NCBI RefSeq assembly: GCF_000186865.1
Contig: NW_008705561.1
Coordinates: 831,168-895,167, forward strand
DNA length: 64,000 nucleotides
Origin: Aureococcus anophagefferens
Lineage: Eukaryota > Sar > Pelagophyceae > Pelagomonadales > Pelagomonadaceae
Direction: 5' to 3'
Shown: in pieces, positions 1,874-11,662 of the stretch
Numbering within the stretch: position 1 is the stretch's first letter
Layout: every line of letters starts with the position of its first letter
Program-made: the position numbers and the translations under genes
Notes under the pieces: model-generated
Told to the model about the DNA's origin: nothing
Database searches by the model: none
Seen by the model: only the letters and a program-made list of their open reading frames with translations

Positions 1874-3452
1874 ATGGTGGCGCTCGACGCCGCGACGTCG
1901 CTCATGGGCGAGGACGCGAACGCGGCCGCCGACGACGCGTACTCGATGCTGCACGAGGACGCGCGGCTGGCCGCCGACTCGGCCCGCGCCCGGAGCCAGG
2001 GCCCCTGGACGAAGAACCTGCACTTCCGCCCGCCGTCGGGCTTCTGGGGCGATGCCGAGTGGTACGACCTGCAGCTCGAGCGCCGGCTGCCGGAGGTAAA
2101 ACCCATGCTCGACGAGGTCGTCTTCGCGCTGCCGCCGCTCGGCGGCGGCGGCGTCTGCGACGTCTGCGCCGGGTCCGGCCGCGCGTCCGCGGCGATCCGC
2201 GCCGCCTACCCGCGCGCGCGCCTCACGCTCGTCGACGTCGACGCCGGTCGCCTCGATATCGCCGCCCGCCGCGTCGCGCCGCCCGCGACCTTCGTCGCGG
2301 CGCCGATCGCGCCCGAGGCGCCGACGCTGCCCGAGGCGCCCTACGACGCCGTCGTCTTTTAAAAAAAAGTCTTTTTTTTTTAAAGTCCTGGTGCTGGCGC
2401 TGCGCCACGTCGTCGCGCCGGCGCCGCACTACGCGGACCGCCACGGCCTCGCGGTCGCCGCCACGATCGGCGAGGCCTACCGCGCCCTGTTCAACCAGAT
2501 CTTCTGCTCGCTCCGGCCCGGCGGCCACGTCGTCCTCGGCGACCACGTCGAGCACGGCCACCCGTCGGTCTTCGAGCACATGGTCCTGCTGCGGGAGTGC
2601 GGCTTCGAGGACGTCGACGTCGCCTGGCGCCGGCGCGACTACTTCGTCGTCGGCGCGCGCGCGCGCCTCCGCGTGGAAATCAACCGGCGAGCTGGGACGT
2701 CCCGACCAAACTTTGAAACCGATTCGGCTGATTTTTGGACGAATCGGTTGCTCTCGTCGATTTCTCGTAGCACAACAGAAGTGAAACGGCCTCATACGCG
2801 CACAGGGTCAACTTCCCAATAAGGCGTCCGCTAGCACGTAAAGACGTCCCCGGGCGAATCCTACGTCCGCAGAGGGTTCCTAGACGCCGATTTTTGGTAC
2901 GGTACCGGTTTTGGGCTTCGGGCGGCGCCCCATGCCCGAATCGACCACCGTACTTTTTTTTTTACCCCCGGCGACAGTCTGCGGACGAAAAATACCACGC
3001 GAGAGAGCATGGAGCTACCATCTCAGCGCGCTGCGCGCGGTGGACTTGCTGCGCTGCGTGCCTGACCTCACACCCATTCGCGAGGGTCGTTTCTGCGCTC
3101 TGGCCAGCGACGAAGTCGAAATTTTCTCCCGCGCGGCGCGCGGGGCGGGTGCGGCGACTCTGTGGCAGCGGCCTCTCGGGCGGCGGCAGCGGCGGCTGCG
3201 CGGAGCAGGCTCGTTCTCTGGCGAGGGCGCGACCTCCTGCACGCCGCGCGTGAGCGGCACGTGCAGCTGCGCCGGTTCTGGACCGCTACGCGCACTGGAT
3301 CCCGCCGAATTTTTCCTCCCGCGCTTCGCGCGGCAAGGAGGCGCTCGAGACCAAAACCGGTGCCTGGGCGCTGCGCGGCTTCATGGAGGTGGTCTAGAAC
3401 ATGTTCGAGGACGCCATGGACTTGGTCTCCGCTATAATCTCCACGCGCGCGC

Positions 3453-3990: not shown

Positions 3991-4140
3991 GAACTTTTTT
4001 TTTTTCAAAGAATGCTGTGCATGCGGCTTCTCAGTCGCAATTCCTCTGTTGAAGGCTAAGTTTGACCCACGTTGCCGCGATCCGAAGCGAGCATGTACGC
4101 GTTATGCTGCCCAGGGTTGCCGCGAGCTCTGAGAGGAGGC

Positions 4141-5610
4141 ATGATGTACGCGTTCTGCCTCCTCGCAACCGCCGCAGCCTTCCGCGGTCCTGCATCGCAG
4201 GTCGCTCCCGCGCGCGCTGCACCGCGTCTGCGCGGCGCCGTCGCTCCCGCGCGCGCTGCACCGCTTCTGCGCGGCGCCGTCGAGGACCACGTGACGCAGC
4301 GCGCCGAGGACCTGCTCATGGCCATCGTCAAGGACAAGACGGCCTTGGGCAATGACATCAAGCGCAACAACCAGCGCACGGGCGGGTCCGCGGTGCTCGA
4401 GGGCGTCACGCTCGAGCGCTGCGACGCCGACGGCCTCGACATGACCTGCGTCGTCCGGCGGCGCGTCGGCGGCTTCGGCCGCAAGTTCGAGACGGGCGAC
4501 GAGCGCGCGAACGCGACGTGGGCCGACTTGCTGCCGGACGACGCCGCCGCGGCCTGGGCGGGCGGCGCCGACGCGCAGCGGCGGCTCATGCAGGTCGCCT
4601 GCGGTTTAGAATTGCCCGGCGCCGCCGCGCGCCTCCTGGACGGGGCGTTCCCCGGCGGCCTCGGCGACGCCGGGCGCCTGCCCGACAACCTCTGGCTCAA
4701 CAACATCCCGGCGTCGAAGCTCGCGCGCAGGCACATGAGCGACGCGTGCATCGCCGGCGTCCTCGACGCGCTCGGCGCGCCCGGCGCGCCGAGCACGCTC
4801 GCGGTGACGATCAAGCCCCCGGAGCTCGACGTCGAGATGGACACGTACCGCATCGGCACCCTGCTGGAGCTCGTGCGGTCGTTGACCTTCGCCATCATCT
4901 CGGAGCGCGGCGAGCGCGTGCGCGTCGCCGTGCAGGCGCCCATGGGCGAGGGCATCTTCGCGGGCATGCCCCTGTCCCTGAACGGCGTGCGCAAGCTCCT
5001 CTCGCTCATGGACTGGGGCCCCGACGCGGCCCAGCTCATGGACGACGGCTACGTGCGCTTCGGCGCCGTGTCGGGCCGGCCCGAGGACGTCGACGACAAG
5101 GACGACGTCTTCGTCCTCGTCGCGCCGCAGTCCATCGTCGGCAGCTCCATCGTCGAGCCGCTCCGGGACATGGTCGAGGCGGCGGGGCGCCGCAAGGTCA
5201 TCACGATCAACGCGAATCTCGACGACATCCAGTCGTCCCAGGGGGTCATGTCCTACCGCGGCCGCGGCGAGCGCCTCGCGTTCGAGGACGCGTGGCGCGA
5301 GATCTTCCACTTCTCGCTCGTCGTGCCCATCGGGCGCACCTTCTTCCCGATCCTCGGCGCCGTCGTGAGGCCGACGCTGGGCAGCCCCTACGGCCTCTAC
5401 CAGCGCATGGAGCGCGCGAGCGACCCGCGCGCGACGTTCCGCGACAGCCGCGACCGCGCGAGGGCGGCCGCGGCGGGCGAGCTCACGGAGGTGTACCGGC
5501 CCGTGGGCTGCTACGCGGCCATGCCGACGCCCAAGGAGCAGAAGGCGGCCTTCGCCGCGGCGCTCCGGGACGAGTTCGAGCGCGAGGAGGCGCGTAAGAA
5601 GGAGGCGTGA
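4141..5610 (+). CDS. plastid-targeted DUF1995 protein (LPA3-like)
   Basis: About 489 residues from the ATG at 4141 (another in-frame ATG at 4093 would add 16 residues). The leader MMYAFCLLATAAAFRGP is an ER signal peptide ending in an A-A-A-F motif, the plastid-import signature of ochrophyte algae. The next 26 residues are a perfect-length 13-residue tandem duplication (VAPARAAPRLRGA / VAPARAAPLLRGA). The body fits DUF1995, the domain of the Arabidopsis photosystem-II assembly factor LPA3: RLPDNLWLNNIP, AVTIKPPELDVEMDTY, then FVLVAPQSIVGS and ITINANLDD, which correspond to the nucleotide-binding-like strands of that family. Inferred role: photosystem assembly or plastid maintenance. No intron needed; convergent neighbours are absent and the next gene starts 185 bp downstream. 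Confidence 0.7.
   Translation: MMYAFCLLATAAAFRGPASQVAPARAAPRLRGAVAPARAAPLLRGAVEDHVTQRAEDLLMAIVKDKTALGNDIKRNNQRTGGSAVLEGVTLERCDADGLDMTCVVRRRVGGFGRKFETGDERANATWADLLPDDAAAAWAGGADAQRRLMQVACGLELPGAAARLLDGAFPGGLGDAGRLPDNLWLNNIPASKLARRHMSDACIAGVLDALGAPGAPSTLAVTIKPPELDVEMDTYRIGTLLELVRSLTFAIISERGERVRVAVQAPMGEGIFAGMPLSLNGVRKLLSLMDWGPDAAQLMDDGYVRFGAVSGRPEDVDDKDDVFVLVAPQSIVGSSIVEPLRDMVEAAGRRKVITINANLDDIQSSQGVMSYRGRGERLAFEDAWREIFHFSLVVPIGRTFFPILGAVVRPTLGSPYGLYQRMERASDPRATFRDSRDRARAAAAGELTEVYRPVGCYAAMPTPKEQKAAFAAALRDEFEREEARKKEA
4201..4278 (+). repeat. 39 bp tandem duplication in a plastid transit peptide
   Basis: Units 4201-4239 and 4240-4278 differ at one base (CGT/CTT codon change Arg to Leu). The duplication doubles a 13-residue, Arg/Ala/Pro-rich transit-peptide segment of the DUF1995 gene and keeps the frame. 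Confidence 0.9.
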
Positions 5611-5795: not shown

Positions 5796-8301
5796 ATGAT
5801 CGCCCGAAGGCTCGCGGTTCTCGTCGCCTTGGCGTCGCCGCCTGAATTGTCCGCCTTCTCGCGCATCTACGGCATCTGGCCGGGCGAGGACCACCTGCAG
5901 GACTTCTGGGGCCCCGCTCGCCTGGGCTTCGAGGGGAGTTTCGCCTATGAAGCGAGCGTCCTCGCCGCGAGCGACGACGACGTCGCGTCGATCATCGGCG
6001 GCATCCTGGGCGCTTCGGGGGACGCGCGCGGCGCGCTCGTCGTCGGGCCCATGCGCCACGGCGAGGCGAGCTACGCGGCGTTCCTCGAGGCCGGCGGCGC
6101 GTTCTTCCCCATCGCCGAGGGCGTCGACCTGGCCGCGTACGGCCTGACCAACGAGACGAGCTTCCAGTTCGTCTTCAGCCCGGACCCCATCAACGCCGCG
6201 GGGCTCGTGGCCCAGGAGATCTGCCGGACGACGGGCTACGGGGCCATCCACCGCGTCATGCGCCTGTACGGCGCCGCGTACGCGGACTCGCGCGTCGACG
6301 CGAACCTGGCGTGGCTCGAGGAGCACTGCGGCACGACGATCTTCGAGCACTCGTCGCTGCGGGCCTACTTCCGCGAGGAGACGGCCTACGACCTGGCCTT
6401 CTCCGCACTCGTCAAGGATTCGTCCGCGTCGTTGATCGTCGCCGCGAACGACCGCATGGTCAAGGGCGCGCTCCGGGCCATCGAGGACACGCTGAGCCCC
6501 GCGGCGGCGGCGAAGATTTTGATCGCGGGCTTCGACTGGACCGAGGACTGGATGCTCAAGCAGGGGAAGATCGTCGCCGACGGCGACCAGTACATGTCGA
6601 CGCCGGGCGTGGGCGCGTGGAGGTCCATGAAGCACGTCATCGACGTCGTGCGGTCCAACGGCTACGGCACGACGGCGGACCTGCAGCGCTTCTTCGACGA
6701 CGGCGCGGCGCAGATCTGGACGGAGACGTCGTGCCAGTACGCGGACACCGAGGGCTACGTCCTCTCTTATTTGCTCAACAACTACGCGCCGAGCGTGCGC
6801 GCCAAGCCCGCGTCGGGCGTCGGGCCGACGATCGTCCGCGTCGGCGCGAGCGACATTCACGTCGACGCGGTGGACACGGCCGGCGGCAGCTTCTCCGCGA
6901 CGGCCTGGATCAACCTCGAGTGGCACGACGCGCGCCTCGCCTTCGACGCGAACATCTACAACGGCACGGTCTACGTCGACGCGACGCGCATCTGGTTTCC
7001 GAACATCTACCTCCTCAACCATTTCACGCCGCAACTGCTCTTGTTGATCAAGGTGCTCCCCGCGGCCGTCATGCCGGACGGCACCGTGCGCGCGAGGTTC
7101 AAGGCCGCCGGCGAATACGTCTGCGACATGAACATCGCTCCCTACCCCTACGACGACCACGCGTGCGAACTCTCGCTCGTCTCCCCGTCGACGACGAGCG
7201 AGCTCAAGCTCGTCGGCGACCTCGGCTACACGATCTTCGGAGGGCCCGAGGGCTTCGAAACCCCGTCGCGCGACGACGTCCGCGAGGGGACGTACGTCGA
7301 CCAGCGAGGGGAGGGCCACGGCATGGTGGATCTTCCCATCTTGCTCACGCCAGCGTCCTGTGGCCGTGACGATTTTCGAGAGATTCTGGCCGGGAAAACG
7401 ACGAGAAATCGTTACGGCGGTGACGATTTTCGAGAGATTCTGGCCGGGAAAACGATGAGAAATCGTTACCGACACATTTGGTAGGCTCACGCGGGACCCG
7501 CGCTACGTCGTCCTGACCTACGTGCTCGTCGGCTGGGCGCTCAACATGCTGGGCTTCCTCGTGTTCTGGATCCCCACGGAGGGCAGCGGCATCGACCGGT
7601 CGGGCCTCGCGATGACGACGATCCTCACGGCGCAGTTCATGATGTACGAAGCCAAGGTCACGCAAGTCAGCACGTGGCTCGACATGTACTTCTCGCAGAT
7701 GATCGCGTACCAGCTCGTCGCCTTTCTCCTGACGGTCCACAGCGCGCGCAGGAACAGAATGGTGCTCGCGCTCGGCGGCGACGGGGACTACCTGGACAAG
7801 GTGTATCGGCGCCAGTACGAGCTCGGCGAGGGATCGGGCGGACACTTCAAGAACGTCGTCTTCTTCCTCTTCAACCTGCTCTTCGGCGGCGGCGACGCCT
7901 TCCCCGTGGACCGCTGGGCGCGCCGCTACTTCGTGCCCTTCTTCTTCGTTAGTCAGATCGCGCTTTGCTTCTACCCCTTCAGGAAAAGTGGCAAAATCAC
8001 GAAGTCGGACTACACGGGCTTCAACTCGCCCCTCTGCCACATCAATCTGGCCTTCGCCGGGATGTACGCGGTCGTCTTCGCGCTCGGGCTGCTGTACCGG
8101 AGCTGGGACGACAAGCCCGTGGGATTTTCCGCAGGCTGGCACGAAACTCGGCGCGAGCCGATCACGCCAAAACCCGGCTCGGTCGTCCTAGTCGGCGAGG
8201 CGACCGAGGCGCCCGAGGCGACGGGCTCAAGGCCGCGAAACCGGCGACTCTCGTCGGCGACGACGTCGACGTCGACGATGTCGGTGCGTGCGTGGGAATG
8301 A
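5796..8301 (+). CDS. periplasmic-binding-protein domain fused to a Cys-loop pentameric ligand-gated ion channel
   Basis: The product starts at ATG 5796 with a signal peptide. Residues about 20-330 form a type 1 periplasmic-binding (LacI/RbsB-type) fold: EGSFAYEASVLAA, ALVVGPMRHGE, LIVAANDRMVKGALRAI, ILIAGFDWTEDW and a closing GDQYMSTPGVGAW. Residues about 345-500 are a Cys-loop receptor ligand-binding domain: AWINLEWHDARLAF, IWFPNIYLLN and a loop with Cys443 and Cys457 separated by exactly 13 residues and containing YPYDDH, equivalent to FPFD in animal receptors. After an intron region (7296-7485) come M1 (RDPRYVVLTYVLVGWAL ... FLVFWIP), M2 (AMTTILTAQFMMYEA), M3 and one or two further helices, then a tail to the stop at 8301. 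A 58-nt intron 7296-7353 joining GTY to RPVAVTIF gives the expected strand before M1; the following junction to LTRDP is unresolved because of a repeated hairpin (7366-7469). Likely a surface channel gated or modulated by a small solute. Confidence 0.8.
7366..7469 (+). repeat. two 50 bp imperfect-palindrome units, 54 bp period, in an intron
   Basis: Units 7366-7415 and 7420-7469 begin GTGACGATTTTC and end GAGAAATCGTTAC, so each can fold on itself. They differ at one or two positions and are separated by GGCG. They sit just before the acceptor-like TTTGGTAG (ends 7484) of the channel gene and have no obvious coding role. Confidence 0.85.
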
Positions 8302-9047: not shown

Positions 9048-11662
9048 ATGACGGACCAGCTCAACGACGCGGCGCGGCCGCTCATCGACCTCATCGACAC
9101 GCTGCGGGCCCACGGCGTGCAGCGCGACCTGTGCGGACGCCCGGCGTCCGCGGAACCGGCCGCCCGCGCGCGCGCGACCCCCCCCGTTCGCAGGCCGCTG
9201 CCGCAGATCGCCGTCATGGGCGACCAGAGCGCGGGCAAGAGCTCGGTGCTCGAGATGATCAGCGGCGTGCCTTTCCCGCGGGGCAGCGGGCTCGTGACGC
9301 GGTGCGCGACGCAGCTCATCATGAAGCGGACCGCGCCCGGGAGCGCCTGGGCGGCGACGGCGTCCGTGTCGTGGTCGCGGCCGCAGCCCGCGGAGTCGGG
9401 CCCCGTCGCGGACCCGGCGGCGCTGAGCGTCGCGATCGAGCGGCTCACGGAGGCGCTCTGCGCGGTGACGACCAACGGCTTCTCGACGGAGACCATCGTC
9501 ATCAACCTGTCGGCGCCGGACGTGCCCGACCTCACGCTGCTGGACCTGCCGGGCATCGTCCGCACGGCCGTCGCCGGGCAGAACGCGGACGTCGTCGGCG
9601 ACGTCAACGGCCTCATCACGTCCTACCTCGAGCAGGAGCGGACCATCGTGCTCGCCGTCATGCCCGCGAACCAGGACATCGCGACCATCGACATCCTGGA
9701 GCGCGCCGCGGTCGCGGACCCCGGCGGCATGCGGACGCTCGCGGTCCTCACGAAGCCCGATTTGGTCGACGACGGCGCGGAGGACGAGGTCAAGGAGTGC
9801 CTCATGAACCGGCGCAAGCCTTTACGGTTGGGCTTCGCCATGGTCAAGTGCCGCACGCAGCGCGAGCTCGACGGGCGCATCTCGCTGTCTAAGGCGCTCG
9901 TCGTCGAGCGCGAGTTCTTCGAGGCGCACCCCTACTGGTCCGCGGCCGTCCACGCCGACGAGCGCAAGAAGCTCATGGGCGTCCAGGCGCTCACGGGCCG
10001 CCTGTCGTCGCTGCTCGTGGAGCGCATCAAGGTCGCGCTGCCGGAGATCAAGTACGAGCTCCAGCAGCAGAGGCTCGTCGCCGTCGCCGAGTTCGAGCGC
10101 CTCGGCGGCGACAGCGCTTTGGACGGGCGCAACGCCATGCGCGCGGAGCTCGTCAAGGTCGTCGCGGAGTACGCGACGCTCCTGCGCCAGTCCGCGCGCG
10201 GCAACTACGGCAACCTGACGCTCGCGCGGCAGCCGGAGCTCCGGCTCTTCGGCGAGGGCCAGGAGATCTTCAAGTCCCTCAAGCTCGCCGTCCAGGGCAC
10301 GCAGCCCCAGTTCGACAACCGGGCCTTCACGGAGCGCCTCGCGGCGGAGATGCACGCGTTCCGCGGCCGCGAGCTGCCCGGCTTCACGAACAGCCAGGTC
10401 TTCTACGGCTTCATGGTCCAGAACATCGAGGAGTGGCGGCCCTACGTCGAGGAGTGCCGCCAGGCCTACGTCGCCGCGGCGGCCAAGGTCTCGGACGCGC
10501 TCCTCTACGCTCTGGCGCCCACGTACCCCATGCTCGTGTCCGAGCTCCGGCAGCGCGCGAGCGACATCACGGACGCGCGGGGCGACGACGTCCGGCAGAA
10601 GCTGGACGTGGTCTTCGCCAAGGAGAGCGACCCCTACACGACGAACGAGTCCATGCTCGAGCTCATCAACCAGATCCGCCTCAAGAACTTCGACGTCGCG
10701 CTCCAGTCCGTGCTCAACTCCGTGCCGCCGGGGTCGCTGCTCTCGAGCGACAAGAACGTCACGGAGCTGGCCAAGGCCCACGTCAAGCGCCAGCTCGGCA
10801 AGTGGTACATGCAGACCCACGGCGTCAACACGACGTCGAAGGTCGAGGACATGTGCACGCTGCTGGAGGCCTACTGGGACGTCGCGACGAAGCGTTTGGT
10901 CGACAACGTGTGCATGACGCTCGAGCACGACTTCACGAACGCCATCCTCAAGCAGCTCGAGGAGGCCTGCTTCATGTTCGCCGCGGAGATGAGCCTCGAC
11001 GACAAGGAGACGGAGCTCGCGCGCCTCTTCCTCGAGGACCCGCAGCTCCTCGAGCAGCGCGCGGCCGCGCGCGACAAGCGCGACCGCATGACCAAGGCCC
11101 TCGCGTCCCTGAGCGAGAGCGGCTTCAACGTCGTCGCGGCCAAGCCCCAGACGGAGGAGGAGCAGGCGCCCTCCGCCATCGCCGCGGGCTTCGTCACGAA
11201 GGACCAGGAGGCCGCGAACGACAAGCTCCTCAAGCGCGCGGCGCCGCGGCCGACGCCGCCGCCGCCGCCTCCGAAGCCCGCGGCGCCGCGCGCCGCCGCG
11301 CCGCCGCCGNNNNNNNNNNNNNNNNNNNNNNNNNNNNNNNNNNNNNNNNNNNNNNNNNNGCCGCGGCGCCCGCGGCCCTCGCCGCGGCGCCCGCGGCCGT
11401 CGCGGCCGGCGCGGCGAGTGGCGCGCTCGCGCCCGAGTACGCGGCCGTGGCGCCAGCGGCGCTCGCGGCCGCGCCCGCGGCCGTCGCGGCGGCGCCCGCC
11501 GCGTCCGACTTCGCGCGCAACAACCCGGGCCTCTTCTCCGGCGGCCTCTTCGGCGACGACGACGCCGCGCCCGCGGCCGCGTCCTCCACCGCGGACCTGA
11601 GCTCCAAGTTCGGCGACCTCTTCGGCGAGTCAAGCGGGCCGCCCAAGGGGCTCTTCGACTGA
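9048..11662 (+). CDS. dynamin-superfamily large GTPase (Mx/DRP-like)
   Basis: The GTPase core has all signature motifs: P-loop GDQSAGKSS, switch GLVTRCATQL, G3 DLPGI and G4 TKPD. The middle and GED-like stalk follows (KYELQQQRLVAVAEFERLG onward). A 63-nt intron at 9131-9193 is inferred: joining GACCT to GCCGCTG gives RDLPLPQIAVMGDQS, which matches the family, whereas leaving it in adds 21 low-complexity residues without changing frame. The last ~140 residues are a Pro/Ala-rich tail broken by a 50-N gap; the frame differs on the two sides of the gap, so the true gap is not exactly 50 bases. The end at 11662 (…GPPKGLFD) is in the downstream frame. Probable role: membrane fission of organelles or vesicles. 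Confidence 0.93.
11310..11359. other. assembly gap (50 N)
   Basis: Unknown bases inside the Pro/Ala-rich tail of the dynamin gene. Round size and loss of frame across it suggest a placeholder length. Confidence 0.99.

Follow-up and report, generated by a model that had tools for sequence, protein, structure and literature searches.

Fusions of a type I periplasmic-binding-protein (PBP-I) domain to a pentameric ligand-gated ion channel (pLGIC) have been described in bacteria, among them Magnetospirillum and Bradyrhizobium, in the order PBP-I, ligand-binding domain, channel (Tasneem et al. 2005, PMC549065). The bacterial forms were described with a four-helix channel and lack the Cys-loop cysteines. 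The bacterial pLGIC DeCLIC has an extra N-terminal domain, built of two jelly-roll lobes, on a cation-type pore, and the 2022 paper on it (PMC9897478) states that no eukaryotic homologue has been observed with the additional N-terminal domains that prokaryotic pentameric channels have. Animal and protist Cys-loop receptors have the Cys-loop, the M1-M4 membrane helices and the common fold, and Aureococcus was previously reported to hold Cys-loop and Cys-less members, in a report whose main text contains neither ‘periplasmic’ nor ‘N-terminal’ (Jaiteh et al. 2016, PMC4795631). RbsB, the glucose/galactose-binding protein and LuxP are stand-alone periplasmic proteins. In NMDA and AMPA receptors a ligand-gated channel bears an N-terminal domain of the PBP type, but they are tetramers with a pore unrelated to that of Cys-loop channels. 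We analyzed a gene at 5796-8301 on the forward strand of a 64,000-nucleotide (nt) stretch of Aureococcus anophagefferens (NW_008705561.1; the window, to which positions refer), and searched the 49-Mb genome in 86 contigs. This gene has the domain order of the bacterial fusions and, unlike them, both Cys-loop cysteines; it shares the fold and helices of the animal receptors, an extra N-terminal domain and a predicted cation-type pore with DeCLIC, a PBP-type outer domain with the glutamate receptors and, now within a fusion, the fold of RbsB, the glucose/galactose-binding protein and LuxP, together with probable counterparts of the C-lobe pocket residues of RbsB.

Open-frame analysis gave two exons, neither of which contains a stop. 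Exon 1, 519 codons plus 2 bases long, runs uninterrupted from a signal-peptide-like start through the PBP domain into the Cys-loop ligand-binding domain, and exon 2 encodes the membrane part:

5796-7354, + strand: exon 1, with signal peptide, PBP, linker and Cys-loop ligand-binding domain (open frame, Pfam, introner-pattern splice site)
5796-5855, + strand: probable signal peptide, amino acids (aa) 1-20, MIARRLAVLVALASPPELSA, judged by eye
5856-6674, + strand: type I PBP (RbsB-like) domain, about aa 21-293
6675-6770, + strand: linker, about aa 294-325, containing the conserved TETSCQ (C313), from alignment A2; model confidence low
6759-7354, + strand: Cys-loop receptor ligand-binding domain, C443-x13-C457, from Pfam and PDB profile matches
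7485-8301, + strand: exon 2, with M1-M4, extra helix M5 and C-terminal tail (open frame, structure model)

The original prediction, made from the letters of the window, had proposed that an algal Cys-loop channel carries a fused domain with a PBP-type fold; the single exon-1 frame, the fold and domain matches and the repetition of the arrangement in paralogues confirm this observation, and the prokaryotic precedents that it mentioned include those of Magnetospirillum and Bradyrhizobium. The A. anophagefferens proteins P0001, P0006 and P0015 are labelled ‘GABA-A receptor’, and P0001 is the present gene under another splice model that omits parts of the PBP, the ligand-binding domain and M3.

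The genome gave 26 matches to PF02931, or 23 loci once neighbours were merged, and at least five of these loci carry a full PBP (the 5796-8301 gene, L020, L018 and the divergent L022 and L028). The other loci were covered by viewing the frame with the ligand-binding domain, by one tblastn over 25 fetched loci and by one protein search of the genome; further PBP-bearing loci may have been missed, since the PBPs in L022 and L028, which are divergent, escaped these searches. A third protein search, with L028 as query, returned three proteins, all close to L028. PBP and ligand-binding domain also stand in one frame in L018, L022, L028, P0004, P0008-P0010 and P0014. These independent copies contradict the proposal that PBP and channel are separate genes united by misassembly or misreading, which we regard as barely credible; the frame change at 7355-7484 might suggest it, but that change sits within the channel part, at an introner. 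On the minus strand of contig C8 (1610400-1613900), L066 is a truncated copy of the PBP-channel gene, in which a PBP N-lobe is followed by sequence without similarity to P0004 or P0006. At L064 (793-2394, minus strand) Peripla_BP_4 scored above cut-off with no channel in frame; by eye the product is secreted and perhaps contains a second PBP unit.

The ligand-binding domain matched Neur_chan_LBD at 76 bits (cut-off 26) and carries a C-x13-C loop with proline (C443-C457, YPYD). Profile A1 matched GABA-A beta-3 among PDB sequences at 5.3e-27, and the M1-M3 stretch falls within a 97.8-bit alignment to the same protein. Both Cys-loop cysteines, which the original prediction had singled out, are indeed present; they are common in this genome, being found in 13 of the 17 other loci with a real loop (motif scan, loops chosen by eye). 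L035 and L037, on separate contigs, are near-identical Cys-less pLGIC genes, and in both a transmembrane stretch seems to be repeated.

The membrane part was assigned as follows:

7507-7569, + strand: M1 (structure model)
7585-7659, + strand: M2 pore helix, Asp at -1' (alignment to GABA-A beta-3)
7672-7737, + strand: M3 (structure model)
7906-7980, + strand: M4, with a VDRWARR-type start (structure model)
8035-8106, + strand: predicted fifth transmembrane helix, absent from L022 and L028, which end after M4 (hydropathy, structure model)

The exon-2 model (mean predicted local distance difference test, pLDDT, 58.4; predicted template modelling score 0.55) contains the M1-M4 bundle and a further helix at model residues 182-208, and the pLGIC rows shown align inside residues 4-181. 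We applied hydropathy to the last segment only, because at the threshold used it misses M2, M3 and M4 of this protein and lists two non-membrane stretches; by this measure the last hydrophobic segment is also present in L020, P0002, P0004, P0005, P0006 and P0008-P0010. A fifth helix is not known from animal or protist Cys-loop receptors. P0008-P0010 are relatives of the PBP-channel protein with a C-terminal WWE domain, which was found at the C-termini of P0008 and P0010. At the cytosolic end of M2, the alignment to GABA-A beta-3 places an Asp just before the conserved basic position. Cation channels carry an acidic residue at -1', and the pore is read as cation-passing because of this Asp. Every cation-selective member known has acidic rings at its cytoplasmic mouth, according to the DeCLIC paper (PMC9897478).

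The N-terminal domain has the two-lobe PBP-I fold that the original prediction expected of a structure model, although the models are of low confidence, and is akin to solved sugar PBPs (45 PDB sequences up to E 1, best 7.1e-8). The C-lobe contacts of RbsB are identical at six of six positions in the local alignment and at five of six in the global one, and the six residues are invariant among the rows of the 5796-8301 type. From these pocket residues a sugar or sugar-like ligand (a pentose, hexose, inositol or LuxP-type furanosyl signal) is plausible, in keeping with the solute that the original prediction had suggested. Cysteines C143 and C178 are common to all five members of alignment A1 and possibly form a disulfide.

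On balance, these features suggest that the gene probably encodes a subunit of a Cys-loop (pentameric) cation channel, likely at the cell surface, in which an RbsB-type Venus-flytrap domain stacked on the outer end senses the ligand. The proposal builds on direct observations: PBP and channel are fused, their folds could be assigned, pocket residues are conserved, both frames are intact and relatives conserve the arrangement. The RbsB-type domain would bind a sugar-like solute, and closure of its two lobes would act as the trigger, pulling through the linker of about 30 residues with TETSCQ on the Cys-loop domain so that the pore opens. The pore would carry cations, as its Asp at -1' suggests, and external sugar would therefore depolarise the cell or admit calcium. 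The predicted fifth helix would span the membrane and leave the C-terminal tail in the cytosol, an arrangement that a C-terminal WWE domain would suit.

Several results weigh against this proposal. The PBP domain scores 17.2 bits against PF13407 (Peripla_BP_4), below the curated cut-off of 35.1, and the highest score among relatives is 21.0 bits (P0004). The global hhalign alignment (probability 23%) unpairs R166 from R141, with the other five pairs holding, and no positions could be assigned to the sugar contacts of the N-lobe. D247 and Q265 are not retained in L022 and L028 (alignment A1). PF02932 gave no match in exon 2 up to E 1, and the gene is not among the 12 genome matches to that family; L018, P0006 and L022 have matches below cut-off. 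Confidence in both structure models is low (mean pLDDT 52.5 and 58.4), with most of the linker and ligand-binding domain below 60 in the first, and the introner described below would contribute four residues next to the pre-M1 strand.

A less likely but serious alternative is that the PBP domain binds a ligand, or just other subunits or the cell cover, and only modulates or assembles the channel, the agonist acting elsewhere, for example at the Cys-loop domain. The loss of D247 and Q265 from L022 and L028 fits this alternative, as do the effect of the DeCLIC N-terminal domain on gating kinetics and the ligand-binding, allosterically acting N-terminal domains of AMPA and NMDA receptors (PMC9897478). 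It is countered by the six invariant C-lobe residues in rows of the 5796-8301 type and by the Cys-loop site itself, which in the alignment to GABA-A beta-3 keeps the loop A Tyr and lacks the loop B and loop C aromatics.

We further analyzed the splicing region, which the original prediction had placed at 7296-7485; the introner pattern corrects the intron to 7355-7484:

7355-7484, + strand: intron formed by an introner, predicted GT-AG splicing, containing a tandem duplication of 54 bp (7362-7415, 7416-7469), from genome copies and the PMC9860276 pattern
7343-7350, + strand: left copy of the target-site duplication GCTCACGC; CAGC from the element comes next
7485-7492, + strand: target-site duplication GCTCACGC, right copy

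The element has at least 41 genome matches, its own copy included, a lower bound as 40 of 323 candidates were scored. In the fetched loci the copies consist of an 8-bp target-site duplication, CAGC, GTCCTGTGGC...GGTAG and a repeat of the same 8 bp; 10 of the 13 elements compared show a clean duplication (counted by eye), and in the present copy it is exact. The internally duplicated introner (7362-7469) exceeds the other copies compared in length. Published Aureococcus introners add 12 bp to the transcript, 4 from the element and 8 from the duplication (PMC9860276), and the genomic DNA here follows this pattern of an 8-bp duplication, 4 bp then GT and an AG end, by which 12 nt would be added. 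Four extra residues (LTPA) would thus lie directly N-terminal of the pre-M1 RDPRY. The protein P0002 crosses the introner position without added residues (PILLTRDPRY) and may derive from an introner-free allele. Its reading led us to consider GC-AG splicing (7343-7484, zero added residues), which we placed second after GT-AG because published introners contribute 12 nt and this element has their form. A donor at 7360 was rejected as out of frame with exon 2 (derived by hand). The relative P0003 runs into a single-unit introner copy.

Comparison with L020 in 100-base windows of DNA identity revealed one further feature:

6101-6617, + strand: gene-conversion tract with paralogue L020

Identity is 94-100% per window over 6101-6600, 70-90% in the flanking coding windows (5801-8000) and lower beyond. 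Residues 151-275 are identical to L020 at 122 of 125 positions and to the close relative P0003 at 94 of 125, whereas exon 1 outside them matches P0003 at 368 of 396. Because this segment follows L020 and the remainder of exon 1 follows P0003, the PBP C-lobe was most likely received from L020. The converted lobe holds the pocket residues, and conversion left all six unchanged. The conversion partners share one contig, and the tract in L020 reaches 2829; at about 2830-3000 a different introner-like insert, with its own terminal repeats by eye, interrupts the PBP coding sequence of L020.

Insertion of the introner, its tandem expansion and gene conversion could also be read as damage to a copy that is decaying in the sequenced strain, which we consider quite improbable. 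The 12 nt beside the pre-M1 strand and the truncated family copy on C8 would agree with decay, as would the ratios of nonsynonymous to synonymous substitution rates (dN/dS) for aa 276-510, 1.06 against L020 and 1.23 against L018, with a dS that is unreliable at the high GC of this genome. Against decay, both exons are open without stops, the helices and motifs are retained and the architecture is conserved in paralogues and relatives. We did not take dN/dS as functional evidence, because several stretches give values near 1 or higher and G and C are favoured at third positions.

A tree of 35 channel halves grouped the eight PBP-bearing rows (99/89; the same branch side in 98% of 200 bootstrap trees). 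A weakly supported deep split (39/88) set 18 bacterial and two divergent algal rows opposite, with seven other algal rows on the PBP-bearing side. The tree excluded partial-frame rows (including L023, L024, L029, L030, L032-L034 and L037-L041), bacterial near-copies, L058, L062 and P0014; P0013 was treated as bacterial; and the program flagged six long branches, none inside the PBP group. The original prediction had raised an acquisition from bacteria, and whole transfer of the fusion from a bacterium, rather than the joining of a PBP to a eukaryotic Cys-loop channel, would be conceivable given the bacterial PBP-I channel fusions (PMC549065). This origin appears improbable: the PBP-bearing channel halves cluster in a single clade, separate from the 18 bacterial rows, none of which is a one-frame PBP fusion, and side with seven other algal paralogues, if across the weak deep split; both Cys-loop cysteines are present; and pattern scans of low sensitivity, with one peptide pattern in genome_contigs and two in viral_contigs, found no relative for A1 in 87 pattern matches each. 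P0013 matched one plain bacterial pLGIC locus in genome_contigs and nothing in plasmids. Among 395 sampled genomes of one phylum, PF02931 matched in 15, above cut-off in 14, with 18 matches in total; by eye, L056 has its match within a long DeCLIC-like frame (637 aa) and that of L057 adjoins a separate PBP-I-like frame. Narrowing the sample to 3 genomes yielded one more copy, in the same genome.

The neighbouring genes encode a DUF1995 protein (4090-5607) and a dynamin (9048-11300), with a short masked run (X) inside the downstream frame.

The predicted fifth helix, the introner identity, the gene conversion and the divergent second subfamily go beyond the original prediction. Among the titles and abstracts listed, which mostly exclude the subscription literature, we found no report of a eukaryotic PBP-fused or five-helix pLGIC. 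A wider proposal, which we put forward as doubtful, is that these are the first eukaryotic Venus-flytrap pentameric channels and the first with five helices, that the agonist site has moved from the Cys-loop subunit interface to the sugar pocket, and that conversion swaps the pocket lobe as a cassette, placing new chemical senses on a fixed cation pore.

The algal genes are a multi-copy counter-example to the statement in the DeCLIC paper (PMC9897478). They provide a natural setting in which to ask whether a Cys-loop pore can be gated by a Venus-flytrap module or only tuned by it, in the way that PBP-type domains act in glutamate receptors, and the analysis names candidate ligands. The fifth helix, if real, would breach the four-helix rule of the family. 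The cell may gate an ion channel directly upon sensing a sugar-like molecule, which would suggest that this bloom alga detects dissolved sugars through a nerve-type channel.
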